This document shows, piece by piece, positions 1 through 5,022 of a stretch of 5,022 nt of DNA. This DNA is from an uncultured Eubacterium sp. (GTDB lineage: Bacteria; Bacillota_A; Clostridia; Lachnospirales; Lachnospiraceae): NCBI GenBank assembly GCA_947653505.1, contig CANTHI010000321.1:1-5022 (forward strand). The letters run 5' to 3'. The notes under the pieces were generated by a model. The model worked only from the letters and a program-made list of their open reading frames with translations. It ran no database searches and was not told the DNA's origin. The position numbers and the translations under genes are program-made. Positions within the stretch are counted from its first letter, which is position 1, and the number at the start of each line of letters is the position of its first letter.

Positions 1-828
1 AAACTGATAAGCCTCCCAGAGCATATTGCTGTAGATCATCGGCTGATACCCGGCCTTCTCTATCTGTTCACAAAATACAATCGTGTTTTTGGTAAACTGA
101 CTGCCTGTCACATGATCTGTCCTTGCCTCAGCATCCAGAATACTCTCCGGATCATAAACGACAGGCAGCTGAAGCTTTATCCCATCCAGTGTCTGCAGGA
201 CAAACGCCGCTTCCTGCGCTGCCTCTTCCTCGCTGACTGCCTGTGAAAAGAAATAAACTCCTATGTCCAGACCAGCAGCCCTGGCATTCTGAATATAATT
301 ATAGAACTGCTTATCCAGACAAATCCTCCCTTCTTTCCCATAGCCACGGTATCCTATCCGCAAAAAAGCAAATTCATATCCTTCCGCTTTCACTTTTTCC
401 CAATCAATCTCTCCGTTATGATAGGACACATCAATCCCCAGACGATAGCTGTACCGTTCATCTCCGTTATAAGAAAGCCTGTCCCCGTCATGTACAAATG
501 CATCCAGCTTATAATCATGTTTTTTTATTTCCGGATTGATCTTAACCTGATAAGCTTCTCCAAATGCATCCACAAAATCCAGAATCTGCGGCTCCTGTTT
601 TGTCTGGCTCTGTTTGTGCTGGTCAGACTGCGTCTTTGTTTGCTTCTGTATCGTTTTTTCCGGGTCTGCTTTTGTTTTTACGGAATCAGACGGCTCCTTT
701 TTCAATGGTTTTTCTTCCTGCAGCGCTGCATCTGACTGTTTTAGCAGTAAATCCGGATGCTGGCAGGCTCCCGCCAGTATACCTGACAGCATAATTACAG
801 CGAGTATAAAATCCCTGTTTTTTTTCAT
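1..828 (-). CDS. GH25-family lysozyme (muramidase), secreted or lipoprotein, 3' end cut off
   Basis: The first 276 residues are visible; the gene runs off the left edge. Residues 1-21 form a signal-like segment (MKKN, then a hydrophobic stretch) ending in AGAC, so Cys22 could be lipidated, although the lipobox is imperfect (Ala instead of Leu at -3). Residues 23-80 are a Lys/Gln/Glu-rich low-complexity linker. From about 129 the sequence is recognisably glycoside hydrolase family 25: GIDVSYHNGEIDW (130-142) carries the conserved active-site Asp133, followed by FAFLRIGYRGYG (153-164), AGLDIGVYFFSQAVSEEEA (185-203) and LPVVYDPES (221-229), where Asp226 and Glu228 occupy the catalytic DxE position. 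GH25 enzymes cleave the MurNAc-beta-1,4-GlcNAc bond of peptidoglycan. Roughly the last quarter of the domain should lie beyond the edge. The start ATG is 3 nt after the previous stop (TAA GAA ATG) and in the same frame, with only a weak AAAGG 10 nt upstream, so coupled translation is likely. Family assignment is firm; the anchoring mode is not. Confidence 0.9.
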   Translation of the reverse strand, partial: MKKNRDFILAVIMLSGILAGACQHPDLLLKQSDAALQEEKPLKKEPSDSVKTKADPEKTIQKQTKTQSDQHKQSQTKQEPQILDFVDAFGEAYQVKINPEIKKHDYKLDAFVHDGDRLSYNGDERYSYRLGIDVSYHNGEIDWEKVKAEGYEFAFLRIGYRGYGKEGRICLDKQFYNYIQNARAAGLDIGVYFFSQAVSEEEAAQEAAFVLQTLDGIKLQLPVVYDPESILDAEARTDHVTGSQFTKNTIVFCEQIEKAGYQPMIYSNMLWEAYQF

Positions 829-831
829 TTC

Positions 832-1821
832 TTATGAACCTTTCGTAAACTCCTCATAGCTTCTCGGTGGTTTACTGCTCCCCGAAAATTCACACATCCG
901 GTAAACACACTCCGTTACATAACCTTTCTGCAGCTGATCCTGTGCACCTGTATACTGTGGAAAATACAGCTTCATATGCAGTACATAAGACGGCTCAATT
1001 TTTACCATGTCATAAACAAGCCTGCTTCCCGCATCCGTATAACCTGTTACAATGACTCTTCCATAATCTTCCTCTGCAGACAATACTAATCTGGACGCAT
1101 CCCGCATCGAGGCGGTTTCCTGCCCGTAAATATAGTCTGTCATCTGTTCAATCGAACGATAATCTGTCCGCCTGTACAGCGTAAATACCAGCTCGCTGCC
1201 TGCGGATGCTGTAAAACGGATTGTCTGCATGTTCATTCCGTAATCTTTTTCCACAGGCTCTTCATTGCAGCTTACCTCATTGTACAACTCTGCGGGATAA
1301 TAAAACGCAAAATCACTGATTCCGGAATCATAGTACTGATACAAATCCGGATTCAGCACTGCCCCGTAATCTTCTATATTACTGCTGTCTGCCTGAATTA
1401 CCTGGTACTCCGCCGCACGTTCCGTATCCTTTGTCTGTTCCACATCTTTTACCGTTTCCTGCTGCTTCTTTTGTTTTTTTACTTTTTTCTTTGCATCCTG
1501 TGCTTCTTTTTTCGCTTCTTCTGCTTCTTTTTTTGCTTCTTCTGCTTCTTTTCTGGCTTTTTCCGCCTCTGTTTTGGCAGCCTCAGCCTCCTGATCTGCT
1601 GCCGCTTTCTGATCCACAGCTATCTGTACCTCATCCAGCAGATCCTGAGCCTTCTGCTTTTCCTCCTTCTCTTTCTGGTAGGAATCTATCTGGGGCCGGA
1701 CATAGGCGTATGCACCATACGCAGCTCCTGACGCCGCACCCAGCACAAGTATGGCCGCGCCAGCTTTATATAACAGGATCTTCCATTGATTACTTCCATA
1801 TCTTCCATATCTTCTATTCAT
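832..1821 (-). CDS. Single-pass membrane protein with Lys/Glu-rich helical stalk and unassigned C-terminal domain
   Basis: Not a protein I can name. Starting at the ATG at 1821 it is 329 aa. A short basic N-terminus (MNRRYGRYGSNQWK) precedes a hydrophobic segment at about 15-41, rich in small residues, which suggests N-in/C-out topology. Residues about 49-125 are a highly charged helix with seven-residue repeats (EEAKKEA, EEAKKEA, QDAKKKV), either a coiled coil or a single rigid alpha helix. Residues about 155-311 look like a compact alpha/beta domain opening with FAFYYPAELYNEV; this resembles the start of Mog1/PsbP-like folds, but only weakly. It holds three cysteines (185, 305, 310). The start was chosen because GGAG lies 6 nt upstream and the N-terminus then matches that of the lectin gene; an ATG at 1866 would add 15 residues but has no ribosome site. 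The stop is 3 nt before the GH25 start. A role as a stalked outer-face partner of the neighbouring hydrolases is inference. Confidence 0.85.
   Translation of the reverse strand: MNRRYGRYGSNQWKILLYKAGAAILVLGAASGAAYGAYAYVRPQIDSYQKEKEEKQKAQDLLDEVQIAVDQKAAADQEAEAAKTEAEKARKEAEEAKKEAEEAKKEAQDAKKKVKKQKKQQETVKDVEQTKDTERAAEYQVIQADSSNIEDYGAVLNPDLYQYYDSGISDFAFYYPAELYNEVSCNEEPVEKDYGMNMQTIRFTASAGSELVFTLYRRTDYRSIEQMTDYIYGQETASMRDASRLVLSAEEDYGRVIVTGYTDAGSRLVYDMVKIEPSYVLHMKLYFPQYTGAQDQLQKGYVTECVYRMCEFSGSSKPPRSYEEFTKGS
1501..1584 (-). repeat. 21-bp coding repeats in the stalk of the second membrane protein
   Basis: Four consecutive 21-bp units (1501-1521, 1522-1542, 1543-1563, 1564-1584) encode seven-residue repeats of EEAKKEA type. 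The first two differ at one base; the third and fourth diverge further. The coding strand is almost pure purine over much of this tract, so copy number may vary by slippage. Confidence 0.7.
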
Positions 1822-1827
1822 AACATT

Positions 1828-1835
1828 CTCCGCCT
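1828..1835 (-). promoter_or_regulatory. Ribosome binding site deciding the start at 1821
   Basis: On the minus strand AGGCGGAG ends 6 nt before the ATG at 1821 (spacer AATGTT). The in-frame ATG at 1866 has no purine-rich site within 15 nt. This supports 1821 as the true start of the stalk protein. Confidence 0.6.
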
Positions 1836-1855
1836 GTATCTGATCTGTCGCTGCA

Positions 1856-1924
1856 GCATCCTGCATGGCAGATTGTCTGTCGAATCTCTTATTTGTAATT
1901 TTTCAGGATGCATCCTGCATGGCA
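1856..1924. repeat. 15-bp direct repeat spanning the GH3 gene end and the following gap
   Basis: The plus-strand sequence GCATCCTGCATGGCA occurs exactly at 1856-1870 and 1910-1924. On the minus strand both copies read TGCCATGCAGGATGC and encode Ala-Met-Gln-Asp-Ala in the same frame, 54 bp (18 codons) apart. The right copy is the C-terminus of the GH3 enzyme, just before its TGA. The left copy lies in the 81-nt gap before the stalk protein gene and creates a decoy ATG at 1866. A perfect 14-bp palindrome, CAGGATGCATCCTG (1904-1917), overlaps the right copy and the stop codon. The likeliest origin is a short duplication of the gene's 3' end. Confidence 0.7.
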
Positions 1925-3306
1925 AATTTGACTTTTAAGATCCGTTCCAGAGATTCATCAATTCTGCTCTGCCTGATCTCTCCTTTTTTTACCGCATCCA
2001 GAATCCCCGCATACGCACGTTCAAAATCCTGCGGCATCAAAAGCAGATCTGCACCTGCCTTAAGTGCCCCTGTGGCTGCCTCCTGCGGACTGTAGTTTTG
2101 GGAAATCGCTCCCATATTTAAAGCATCTGTAATGACAATTCCGTCAAACCCCATTTCATCCCGCAATACTTCTGTAATCATCTTATGTGACATGGAAGCA
2201 GGCGTATGATCACCCAGTACTTTGGGAAGTGAAATGTGTCCGGTCATAACAAACTCTGCCCCGGCATCTATGCCGGCCTGAAACGGAATCAGTTCACAGC
2301 TGCGCAGTTCGTCCAGTGTTTTATACGAATATGCCCATCCGGAATGACTGTCCTCTTCCGTATCCCCATGTCCCGGAAAATGCTTTAACGTCGCCTGCAT
2401 ATGCTTCTCCTTTAGTCCACGCACCTCCTGCACTACCATATCCGCTACCTGCTGCGGATCACTGCCAAAAGCTCTCCGGCGGATTACAGTATTTGCCGGA
2501 TTCGAAAAAACATCTGCAACTGGCGCGAAATCCACATTAACCTGAAAACGGGATAAATATTCACCGATCTGCAATCCTGTCTGGTATGCCCGCGAACCGT
2601 CCCCATCCGTCCCGATCCGGCACATATCCGGTATATCCGGCACGTTTGCAAATCCCCGTCCGGAAATCCTTGCTACCGTTCCTCCTTCTTCATCCACACA
2701 GATAAATAACGGCAGGCCAATCCGTTCCACGCTGTAAGACTGTGCTTTACTGACCATTGTGGCAAACTGCTCCTCGGACCGGATATTATTTTTCAGATAT
2801 ACAAGCCCGCCAACCGGATACCCGTTCAGCGCCTCTTTTGTCTTTTCCCCAGCCATCACAACACCAGTTACTTTCGTAAGCGCATCCGGGGTAATGACAA
2901 AAAGCTGTGCGATCTTTTCTTCCAGCGTCATCCCGCTGATGCAGTCACGAATCTTATGCTCTGACCGGATATCTGCCTGCAGGTAATTGCCAGCGCCTGC
3001 ACGATCATCCGGGCTGCCGCGATCCTGGGATACTGCCTGTTTGTGATCCGGACTATGCTCTTGCGCTGGCGCTTTCCGTTCGCCCGTCTGACTGTAACGG
3101 TCCGGGGCTGCGTGTTTTCTGCCAGTTTTTTCTCCGCTGTCTGCAGTCTGGTCCGCATTCCTGTTTATCATAAAAAGAGCCAGCAATGCCGTTACTGTCA
3201 GCAGTACGATAGAAAACATGGATGTAAGCAGTATTTTTCTGAGCATCCGGAGTCTTTTCTTACTTTTTCTTCGTTTCCGCCTTTTTTTCGTGACTTCCTG
3301 ACTCAT
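1903..3306 (-). CDS. nagZ: Membrane-anchored GH3 beta-N-acetylglucosaminidase (NagZ-type)
   Basis: 467 aa. A very basic N-terminus (KKRRKRRKSKKR, residues 7-18) precedes one membrane segment at about 25-46, so the rest should face outward. Residues 50-115 are a hydrophilic, low-complexity linker. The GH3 catalytic domain covers about 116-460: GMTLEEKIAQLF (125-136), GLPLFICVDEEGG (197-209), NVDFAPVADV (257-266), the NagZ signature KHFPGHGDT (308-316) with the DSH motif at 319-321 that supplies the Asp/His acid-base pair, and VITDALNMGAI (391-401), whose Asp394 is the expected nucleophile. NagZ enzymes remove non-reducing GlcNAc from peptidoglycan fragments, by way of a covalent glycosyl intermediate. 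In Gram-negatives the enzyme is cytoplasmic and works in wall recycling; in Firmicutes secreted forms act after muramidases, which fits the GH25 gene two positions downstream. The start ATG has GGGAG 7 nt upstream. All key residues are intact. The exact substrate (muropeptides or other beta-GlcNAc glycans) cannot be read from sequence. Confidence 0.93.
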   Translation of the reverse strand: MSQEVTKKRRKRRKSKKRLRMLRKILLTSMFSIVLLTVTALLALFMINRNADQTADSGEKTGRKHAAPDRYSQTGERKAPAQEHSPDHKQAVSQDRGSPDDRAGAGNYLQADIRSEHKIRDCISGMTLEEKIAQLFVITPDALTKVTGVVMAGEKTKEALNGYPVGGLVYLKNNIRSEEQFATMVSKAQSYSVERIGLPLFICVDEEGGTVARISGRGFANVPDIPDMCRIGTDGDGSRAYQTGLQIGEYLSRFQVNVDFAPVADVFSNPANTVIRRRAFGSDPQQVADMVVQEVRGLKEKHMQATLKHFPGHGDTEEDSHSGWAYSYKTLDELRSCELIPFQAGIDAGAEFVMTGHISLPKVLGDHTPASMSHKMITEVLRDEMGFDGIVITDALNMGAISQNYSPQEAATGALKAGADLLLMPQDFERAYAGILDAVKKGEIRQSRIDESLERILKVKFAMQDAS

Positions 3307-3336: not shown

Positions 3337-3408
3337 TTCATGTAAAACCTCCCATTACTGTAAGACCTCCCATTACTGTAAGACCTCCCATTACTGTAAG
3401 ACCTCCCA
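3337..3408 (-). repeat. 18-bp tandem array copying the lectin gene's last codons and stop
   Basis: Minus-strand unit TGGGAGGTCTTACAGTAA is present three times without change (3391-3408, 3373-3390, 3355-3372) and once with three differences (3337-3354). The first copy is the real 3' end of the lectin gene (Trp-Glu-Val-Leu-Gln-stop). The others lie in the gap before the GH3 gene and repeat the same five codons and stop in frame. Further decayed similarity (AATG plus purines) extends to about 3302. Each unit holds a ribosome-site-like GGGAGG and the short palindrome TTACNGTAA. Units abut without spacers, so this is not CRISPR. Copy-number change here would alter the intergenic distance in 18-nt steps without altering the lectin. 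Confidence 0.9.
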
Positions 3409-4107
3409 TTCTATGACATATCCCATTTTTCCGCTGTAATACTTTTCGATGGAGTCAGGGACATCGTTCCAATACCATGTATCATTTACTTCATACATAT
3501 CCAGATAATTTTCATCCCCCGTTTCATTATTCGGTTCTCCATCTCCCCATTTTGCATATGCAAAACGTTCTTTATTCACCCAGCAGAATGTATCATCCTT
3601 ACGGTATCCGCCCAGCCAGACGGTATGGATATGATCGTTGCGGTCGATCAGTTCCTCTACGATCTTTTGCTCTTCTTCCGATGTAATCACTGCCAGATGC
3701 CCGCCCCGCTGTTTTGCCGCTTTTTTCGCCTGCTTCCAGGTAGCATCTGAAACAACCAGCTCATACTCACTCACATATTCCTGTTCTGCTTCGGCTTTGC
3801 GCTGCGCTTCCCTGGCTTCTTCCTGCTTTCTGGCAGCCTCTTCTTCTGCCTTTCTGACAGCCTCTTCTTCCGCCTCCCTGGTGGCTTTGTCCCGCTCCTG
3901 AGCCAGACGCAGCGCTTCCGCCTCCTCTTTCTCCTGAAGGATCTTTTGTTCCTTCTGATAAGCAATCGTTTTGTTTTTTGCATACAGAAAGGCAAAGTAC
4001 AAAGCCACACACGCTGCCAGCGCCGCCAGTCCGATGCATACCGCGTAAAACATTTTTATCTTCCACTCATGCTCTCCAAATCTCCCATTCTCCCGCTGTC
4101 CTCTCAA
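3391..4107 (-). CDS. Membrane-anchored, stalked C-type lectin-like domain protein
   Basis: 238 aa from the TTG at 4107. A short N-terminus (RGQRENGRFGEHEWKIK) leads into a membrane segment at about 18-43, then a charged helical stalk at about 50-111 with eight-residue repeats (EEEAVRKA, EEEAARKQ). Residues about 114-236 form a C-type lectin-like domain: YELVVSDATWKQAKKAAKQR (115-134), GGHLAVI (135-141), VWLGG (163-167), EPN (191-193), Glu199, WND (213-215) and YVIEWE (230-235). Glu, Asn, Glu, Asn and Asp at the five classical calcium-site-2 positions are all present; EPN marks mannose-type sugars in animal lectins. The domain has only one cysteine (175), so the usual disulfides are missing. 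A Ca-dependent sugar-binding outer-face protein is likely; the ligand is unknown. The start is set by AGGAGG 8 nt upstream, and the TTG shares two bases with the previous TGA. An ATG at 4209 would force a 106-nt overlap with the upstream gene and is not favoured. Confidence 0.88.
   Translation of the reverse strand: MRGQRENGRFGEHEWKIKMFYAVCIGLAALAACVALYFAFLYAKNKTIAYQKEQKILQEKEEAEALRLAQERDKATREAEEEAVRKAEEEAARKQEEAREAQRKAEAEQEYVSEYELVVSDATWKQAKKAAKQRGGHLAVITSEEEQKIVEELIDRNDHIHTVWLGGYRKDDTFCWVNKERFAYAKWGDGEPNNETGDENYLDMYEVNDTWYWNDVPDSIEKYYSGKMGYVIEWEVLQ
3826..3873 (-). repeat. Two 24-bp coding repeats in the lectin stalk
   Basis: Adjacent 24-bp units at 3826-3849 and 3850-3873 differ at two positions. 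They encode an eight-residue period with Glu-rich and Arg/Lys-rich faces in the stalk of the lectin protein. An eight-residue period does not fit a classical heptad coiled coil and may favour an isolated, rigid charged helix. Confidence 0.65.
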
Positions 4108-5004
4108 TCCGTCTTCCTCCTGCCAAATATAAAATGGCCTTTTTTTGTTTCTTTTTCCATTTTCATATTTTCCAGCTTTATCCAGAATGTATAAAGCTCC
4201 CTGCCGCATTCCTCCCGTATGGCATCTGCCAGCTTTTCCCTGCGGGAAGCTTTCATATCGGATATATATTCTGCCATTGCACGCACATAACCACTGTCTG
4301 CGGATGCGCGCACTGCGGACAGCAAAGACTGTACTCCATGAATTTCCTTTTTCTTTTTCTGATAAGCCGTTTCATAATCCATGAAAATCCCGACCAGAAT
4401 CTTTTTTTGTGTTTCATCTAACTGCAGACATGTAAAAATCAGAAGGTATTCGTCCTGATCGTTTTCCAGTTCGTCCATAATCTCCGCCAGCTGGCTGATA
4501 TATATCTGAAAATCTCCGCTGCTGATGTCATCTGCAACAATCGGAATTGTATGATAGATCTGCATTTCCTTTACATTCGTAAACTTCCTGCCTTCCTCAC
4601 ATGCACGTATAATAATATTTCCAAAATGTAAAAGCCTGATCTTTGTTACTGGCAGCTGTACATGCTGCATATTACAGTAATTCTGTACCTCGACAGCACA
4701 CTTTGCGTATTTTTTATCCATTCCGGCATTGTATTTCCGCTTTCTGACAAACTGTTTCTTTTCCGCTACTTCTGTCAGCCGCTCGATCGTGCCAATCAGC
4801 CTCTCACACCCTTTTCCGGCAATCTGTCCCTTTCCGGCATCCTGCAGCCATAGAAACAGATCAATGGCAGCTTCATAAATCCCTTCCGCTTCTTCCTGCT
4901 GTCTTAATATGGATACTGCCATATCCACGACCTGATCAAAATAGCCGTAAGCCTGCATGGGAGCGTCACCCCAGTCCCTGGCAAAAACTGCTGCCAGATC
5001 TGTC
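4104..5004 (-). CDS. Unrecognised helical protein, 5' end missing at contig edge
   Basis: 299 residues to the stop are visible; I do not recognise the family. The frame is open with no stop up to the adapter at 5005, and the 15 residues before the first ATG at 4958 (TDLAAVFARDWGDAP) look like normal protein. With no good ribosome site before that ATG, it is probably internal and the gene truly starts beyond the edge. The visible part is soluble-looking and largely alpha-helical (for example EGIYEAAIDLFLWLQDAG and YETAYQKKKKEIHGVQSLLSAV), with no signal peptide, membrane segment or catalytic motif I can identify. The C-terminus is basic (FGRRKTD), and its Arg-Arg-Lys codons double as the AGGAGG ribosome site of the lectin gene, whose TTG start overlaps this gene's TGA. 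That tight coupling argues for a shared role with the envelope genes. A helical-repeat scaffold is one possibility, with no firm support. Confidence 0.75.
4116..4121 (-). promoter_or_regulatory. Perfect AGGAGG ribosome site for the TTG-initiated lectin gene
   Basis: AGGAGG lies 8 nt before TTG at 4107 (spacer AAGACGGA), inside the last codons of the upstream gene. Its strength and spacing decide the start: initiation at TTG gives a 2-nt stop/start overlap (TTGA) and an N-terminus like that of the stalk protein at 832-1821. Confidence 0.85.
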
Positions 5005-5022
5005 AGATCGGAAGAGCGTCGT
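5005..5022. other. Untrimmed Illumina TruSeq adapter at contig end
   Basis: The final 18 bases, AGATCGGAAGAGCGTCGT, are identical to the start of the Illumina TruSeq adapter read-through sequence. They are sequencing residue and not genomic. They interrupt the 5' part of the gene at 4104-5004, and any translation across 5005-5022 is meaningless. Confidence 0.95.

Follow-up and report, generated by a model that had tools for sequence, protein, structure and literature searches.

The stretch of DNA analysed here, hereafter the window, is the whole 5,022-base contig CANTHI010000321.1 of an uncultured Eubacterium sp. (Lachnospiraceae; assembly GCA_947653505.1), and it encodes a C-type lectin of 238 residues whose calcium/sugar site is complete in sequence and whose relatives recurrently lie beside genes for NagZ-like beta-N-acetylhexosaminidases. 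The C-type lectin fold of the protein and the sequence of its site are both near certain, and the link of the lectin family to NagZ is strong. The function tentatively favoured for the protein is that of a membrane-anchored receptor or holder of N-acetylglucosamine (GlcNAc)-type sugar ends on wall fragments, with NagZ as the eraser of those ends.

The fold is recognised by several searches. Lectin_C (PF00059) is returned by Pfam with E 3e-10 and 41.2 bits against a cut-off of 22.6, a sequence search of the PDB with the window lectin retrieves animal C-type lectins, and the top structural matches include binders of mannose and fucose. The earlier note, which was made from the letters alone, had claimed a C-type lectin with a complete calcium-site sequence and had named the Lectin_C profile as a check; the profile search, the PDB search, the alignment and the structural matches together support that claim, and the positions it gave (EPN at 191–193, Glu199, WND at 213–215) are exact when residues are numbered from the TTG start codon, at which the homologue P0002 (98% identity, 238 residues) has the same start residue. 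Its statement that the canonical disulfide cysteines are absent is likewise borne out, as cysteines occur at residues 24, 33 and 175 only and one of them lies inside the domain, so that neither canonical disulfide is possible; the two conserved disulfides of the animal type, as in the collectins and mannose-binding protein (MBP), are thus lacking, and the lectin is assigned to the superfamily rather than as an animal-type member. A first structure model of the whole protein, built on a 20-row alignment, was used for its long helix (residues 14–107) only. Around the site this model was poor and was rejected, the block means of the predicted local distance difference test being 56–68 over residues 181–220 and the listed Foldseek matches having root-mean-square deviations of about 11.5–14 Å.

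With regard to the site itself, EPN, the Glu eight residues after the EPN Glu, and WND occupy the aligned loop positions of EPN-type lectins, and these positions are invariant in 20 of 20 aligned sequences (the window lectin and 19 homologues). A region-restricted homologue search added only P0021 (EPS/E/WND) and P0022 (EPN/G/WND), both of which deviate, and the full site is therefore found in 20 of 22 sequences overall; on the alignment, the window lectin belongs to a clade that retains it. Among 51 domains from searches without motif seeding, 6 have EPN/E/ND, 24 have EPS/E/ND and 3 have QPD/E/ND, with other types or unscorable sites in the remainder; loci from a genome-contig scan seeded with the EPNN pattern have biased site counts and were excluded from the 51. 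The complete EPN site is accordingly a minority state among the unseeded domains, which fits the earlier suggestion that many bacterial folds have lost it.

Separately, the alignment-based EPNN-seeded scan gave 39 viral contigs (L052–L090), which hold distant lectin domains and were not used in the tree described below; 26 of the 27 distinct domains scored have EPN/E/ND. For the window lectin, an identity as a phage gene was rejected, there being no phage match and a single-protein scan having confirmed no viral contig, and an identity as a plasmid gene was rejected with 3 of 72,556 plasmid records matching, weakly.

The second line of evidence is the NagZ-like gene directly next to the lectin gene in the window. 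Its product belongs to the GH3 family, has a hydrophobic N-terminal segment that reads as a membrane anchor, and carries both KHFPGHGDTEEDSH, which we take to be the Asp-His dyad motif of NagZ, and VITDALNM, presumably the nucleophile motif. In strict form, the dyad motif is present in 16 and the nucleophile motif in 11 of 27 NagZ-like proteins. A NagZ-like GH3 gene lies close to a lectin relative at 36 loci including the window (20 + L168 + G355 + 11 + 3), and in 19 rows of the tree besides the window the two genes are immediate neighbours; in all 19, their stop-to-stop frames overlap or lie within 100 bases of each other. Similarly, the lectin and NagZ frames overlap in L168, and the two matches in G355 are 59 bases apart. 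The orientation varies: NagZ may be upstream or downstream of the lectin, and L011 and L018 have it on the opposite strand. By site type, the NagZ-linked lectins (e.g., L177–L190 and L112–L131) split into EPN/E/YD (18) and EPS or EPT/E/ND (16).

The pairing was counted in three samples of genomes. The first comprised 397 genomes, all from the family that contains the closest relative (a Lachnospiraceae metagenome-assembled genome, MAG), with up to six candidates scored per genome; 72 genomes matched at E 0.001, a figure that is not a lectin count, since some match over the stalk only. Apart from these samples, a scan of genome contigs supplied 51 lectin loci. In 55 lectin-bearing genomes of the Lachnospiraceae MAG's family, 41 NagZ-like genes were found, spread over 33 of the 55. 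Of the 41, 13 have a lectin no more than 2.5 kb away, in every case on the same strand; random placement (a figure that ignores kinship between genomes) would put the number at 0.12. In the family of the Olsenella-like MAGs, a lectin match (E 1e-8) was obtained in 25 of 140 genomes, and 16 of these 25 have a NagZ match in the 1.5-kb flanks; the matches in L185, L188 and L190 are weaker and partial, and 5 of the 16 genomes were already in the 51-locus contig scan. At the level of the order, 392 genomes were drawn; 25 of them matched the lectin at E 1e-20, and three new pairs were obtained (L210, L214 and L225).

On a tree of 106 rows and 132 columns, made by a quick method and with many forks unresolved, the NagZ state requires 13 changes. 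All 20 NagZ-linked rows fall inside one group of 67 rows (Shimodaira–Hasegawa-like approximate likelihood-ratio test, SH-aLRT, 97), which also contains 21 rows known to be without NagZ and 26 without readable context; the remaining 39 rows comprise 25 without NagZ and 14 unreadable ones, and the rows without readable context are 21 locus rows and 19 homologues. The tree excludes L168 (NagZ present, weak domain scores), the viral rows and domains with E above 1e-12.

The conservation does not extend beyond the pair as an operon, because GH25, the second stalked membrane protein (STK2) and the upstream gene of the window have no BLAST match in the compared lectin loci (136, later 176). Besides lectin and NagZ, no gene cluster occurs in more than four of the 20 NagZ-linked genome loci and the window; these counts are lower bounds, as wrong-strand frames were called in G+C-rich loci (the NagZ cluster itself covers 17 of the 21 loci), and single linkage has drawn further genes, among them the L168 kinase, into the lectin cluster (34 genes, 18 loci). 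Among the neighbours of 13 Bacillota-type pairs, of which 63 of 76 proteins were scanned, the 25 of 68 families listed include GH3 (12), zinc ribbon (11) and M15 D-Ala-D-Ala dipeptidase (3). Near NagZ genes free of lectin, a zinc-ribbon protein was found at 1 of 15 readable loci (17 fetched, from 28 lacking a lectin within 2.5 kb), with two genes taken on each side and the ribbon pattern sought in the first 60 residues only; so NagZ genes are not simply frequent neighbours of such membrane proteins. The earlier placing of the lectin beside two wall-glycan hydrolases holds for the NagZ-like gene, which is the next gene, and needs a qualification for the GH25 gene, which comes third downstream of the lectin gene and is truncated by the contig end.

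In the proposed mechanism, the lectin domain would sit just outside the membrane, where one calcium would bridge it to the 3-OH and 4-OH that a terminal sugar of the GlcNAc type exposes on fragments from peptidoglycan turnover. Such sugar ends would be generated by muramidases, the GH25 of the window being a candidate, and removed by the neighbouring membrane-anchored NagZ, with the lectin holding or reporting the ends while NagZ erases them; in some relatives, fusion to a Ser/Thr kinase could turn the ligand into a signal. In peptidoglycan chains, it is generally only the non-reducing terminal GlcNAc that has free 3- and 4-OH groups. With GH25 as maker, the lectin as binder and NagZ as eraser, the gene set of the window fits a receptor or holder of such ends. 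In the literature, EPN sites are described as binding sugars via neighbouring hydroxyls (PMC7618208), NagZ as an N-acetylglucosaminidase (PMC6448482), and LpqI, the mycobacterial NagZ orthologue, as expected on the outer side of the membrane (PMC6572805); moreover, the title of a reference in PMC6448482 has mannose-binding lectin recognising peptidoglycan through GlcNAc. The window protein is read here as a receptor for sugar ends on fragments of the wall, with terminal GlcNAc as the probable ligand, and not as an adhesin for host glycans; the wall-fragment role and the GlcNAc-end reading stand at somewhat under an even chance.

The wall of a Gram-positive cell is typically thicker than the reach of about 95 Å that the model gives the stalk, so that the domain would stay within the wall, which speaks against a host-facing adhesin. 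A surface lectin for host or dietary glycans (mannose, fucose, GlcNAc) is quite unlikely, as the window lectin carries no LPXTG signal in its sequence and as NagZ proximity and kinase fusions point inward, even though the exact EPN/E/ND is kept in the window clade and not in the NagZ-linked relatives, mannose and fucose binders are among the top structural matches, and the EPN sites of animal lectins bind mannose, fucose and glucose (PMC7618208). The earlier note had left host glycans and the cell's own wall side by side as targets of a sugar sensor or tether; the own wall is favoured by the recurrence of NagZ, the kinase relatives and the stalk, and this half of the suggestion is weakened by the sites of the NagZ-linked relatives.

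These sites are among the observations that weigh against a receptor of GlcNAc-type ends. None of the 34 NagZ-linked relatives scored (out of 35 other NagZ-linked loci, G355 being left out) has the full EPN/E/ND, each being off at one position: EPN/E/YD in 18 (Tyr for N214), EPS/E/ND in 15 (Ser for N193) and EPT/E/ND in 1 (Thr for N193). Among the loci scored, the full site and NagZ therefore occur together in the window only. Such a one-position change in the NagZ-linked branches can mean a somewhat different sugar or no sugar, and extending the site count from 19 to 34 relatives slightly lowered the probability given to the receptor. Of the genome relatives, the nearest ones whose flanks could be read (L109/L137, L009/L139, L111/L141 and L002) have no NagZ adjacent to the lectin, and in L001, whose upstream flank is absent, NagZ was not seen in the 1.7 kb downstream. 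The NCBIfam model NF003740 scores 190.6 bits on the neighbouring hydrolase, below its cut-off of 207, and the neighbour is hence named NagZ-like. Neither a kinase domain nor PASTA repeats were found by Pfam in the window lectin, whose cytosolic part is an 18-residue tail without a signalling domain. Finally, that muramidases, GH25 included, leave terminal GlcNAc ends is general background rather than a result of this analysis.

The altered sites bear directly on another reading, in which calcium stabilises the fold and the domain binds, instead of a sugar, a protein or peptide partner (e.g., NagZ or STK2). In its favour, the gene pair is retained in all 34 scored NagZ-linked relatives although each has one site position altered, and C-type lectin folds can bind other ligands (PMC7618208, in part). 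This reading is considered fairly unlikely, because 20 of 20 window-clade sequences retain all five positions, which seems more than the fold alone would need. The missing signalling domain of the window protein, together with the proximity of NagZ in the window and at 35 further loci, suits substrate capture, in which the lectin would be a separate carbohydrate-binding module that feeds the cell's own or its neighbours' wall fragments to NagZ as food, with no signalling. Some related domains belong to Ser/Thr kinases, including one whose gene adjoins NagZ, and an FHA protein and a kinase lie near L168; with these against it, substrate capture is unlikely.

The receptor of wall-fragment ends remains the preferred reading, and the architectures of the relatives bear on it. 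The lectin domain forms the extracellular end of several kinds of membrane proteins: the tail–helix–stalk–lectin kind of the window, zinc-ribbon lectin proteins (L137 and L015), proteins with zinc ribbon, VWA and lectin (L142, L144, L147 and L149, of which three adjoin NagZ and L149 is unreadable), and Ser/Thr kinases with a C-type lectin ectodomain (L139 at 7207-10789, L007, L014, L016 and L018; PF00069 E ≤4.9e-32 each). The kinases make up 5 of the 16 lectin proteins scanned with Pfam, which were picked rather than randomly drawn. In L139, a PP2C phosphatase and a further kinase come after the lectin-kinase, and in L018, kinase, lectin and neighbouring NagZ stand at one locus. A wider proposal, that gut Bacillota and Coriobacteria-like Actinomycetota use membrane C-type lectins (some fused to Ser/Thr kinases) to read terminal amino sugars of wall fragments with NagZ as dedicated ligand eraser, and that the NagZ-linked branches were retuned at one position while the window clade keeps the full animal-type EPN site, is regarded as doubtful.

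The tail motif of STK2, GRYGSNQWKI, resembles GRFGEHEWKI of the lectin, and 16% of STK2 is covered by a match to the lectin homologue P0003 (E 5.4e-4). Among the homologues of STK2, P0023 (99%) has the tail motif, P0027, P0029 and P0042 start with zinc ribbons, and P0024 and P0038 have neither; the lectin relatives likewise carry the tail motif or a zinc ribbon. Judging from these motifs, a common cytosolic partner for the lectin and STK2 tails is possible. Furthermore, P0024 and P0003 are each listed with 24,399 bases as the length of their longest contig; this hints, but does not prove, that another organism also has lectin and STK2 together.

Every recognisable gene of the window lies on the minus strand (Table 1), and an Rfam scan of the window returned nothing. 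An 18-base tandem repeat at 3341-3410 (3.9 copies, 98% matches) spans the lectin gene's end and the spacer between that gene and NagZ; its units contain GGGAGG, a possible ribosome-binding site, and its copy number could differ among strains. The contig end at 5005-5022 reads AGATCGGAAGAGCGTCGT, which presumably is an Illumina adapter by its resemblance, and the first residues (RRSSDL) of the upstream open reading frame are therefore probably non-genomic.

Table 1. Features of the window, with coordinates on the forward strand
Feature	Position	Strand	Basis or remark
Upstream gene	4104..5004	-	5' end missing; without Pfam family; stop overlaps lectin start
AGGAGG ribosome-binding site	4116..4121	-	8 bases ahead of lectin TTG
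Lectin gene, membrane-tethered C-type, 238 residues	3391..4107 (stop included)	-	TTG start, residue 1 at 4107
Tail motif GRFGEHEWKI, residues 8-17	4057..4086	-	alignment with homologues P0003-P0011 and P0013; resembles STK2 N-terminus
Predicted transmembrane helix, residues 19-43	3979..4053	-	read from sequence; inside helix 14-107 of first model
E/A/K/R-rich helical stalk, residues 44-107	3787..3978	-	model; about 95 Å if straight
C-type lectin domain, residues 108-238	3394..3786	-	Pfam and structural matches
EPN, residues 191-193	3529..3537	-	alignment and sequence
Glu199	3511..3513	-	alignment and sequence
WND, residues 213-215	3463..3471	-	alignment and sequence
NagZ-like GH3 beta-N-acetylhexosaminidase	1903..3306	-	PF00933 E 1.1e-83; directly next to lectin
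NagZ catalytic-dyad motif KHFPGHGDTEEDSH	2344..2385	-	motif match
NagZ nucleophile motif VITDALNM	2113..2136	-	motif match
STK2, second stalked membrane protein	832..1866	-	C-terminal domain matches no Pfam family
STK2 tail motif GRYGSNQWKI	1777-1806	-	sequence
GH25 muramidase-like gene	1..828	-	PF01183 E 5.9e-22; 3' end cut by contig end

What is known of how bacteria monitor the turnover of their walls concerns mainly PASTA kinases and cytosolic muropeptide sensors. If the receptor reading is true, a second, lectin-based input for wall turnover, paired with an enzyme that destroys its ligand, would be a testable new route, and a sugar site of the kind by which animals recognise bacterial peptidoglycan would occur inside bacteria themselves; the gene pairing also offers a hint of function for lectin-domain proteins of gut bacteria that have none. 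What is new is the genomic context, i.e., the pairing of lectin and NagZ, of which no earlier account appears in the titles and abstract openings of the literature searched, a scope that leaves out most subscription papers. The bacterial C-type lectin fold itself is known, including from cyanobacterial retroelement systems with kinases (PMC7517822, in part).

Compared with the carbohydrate-recognition domains (CRDs) of collectins and the mannose receptor (CL-K1, MBP and mannose receptor CRD4), the window lectin is approximately 23–26% identical, bacterial and without the disulfide cysteines, and where those have a collagen tail or a receptor array, it has a membrane stalk. The variable proteins of cyanobacterial diversity-generating retroelements (PMC7517822) are alike in using the C-type lectin fold as the ligand-binding end, and Ser/Thr kinases are discussed there with multidomain variable proteins; those proteins are hypervariable, whereas the site of the window lectin is conserved, and no reverse transcriptase was found by Pfam among the five main open reading frames of this 5-kb window, in which template repeats were not looked for. 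The PASTA kinases PrkC and PknB (PMC5786024 and PMC4478028, each in part) similarly place an extracellular wall-binding domain on a membrane protein, and some related lectins are carried on Ser/Thr kinases; PASTA repeats serve there and a lectin domain here, where the window protein has no kinase domain. Closest to the neighbouring enzyme is extracytoplasmic NagZ/LpqI in wall recycling (PMC6572805, in part), which is likewise a GH3 enzyme with the Asp-His dyad and expected on the outer side of the membrane; LpqI is a lipoprotein, whereas the NagZ-like gene of the window is linked to a lectin gene.
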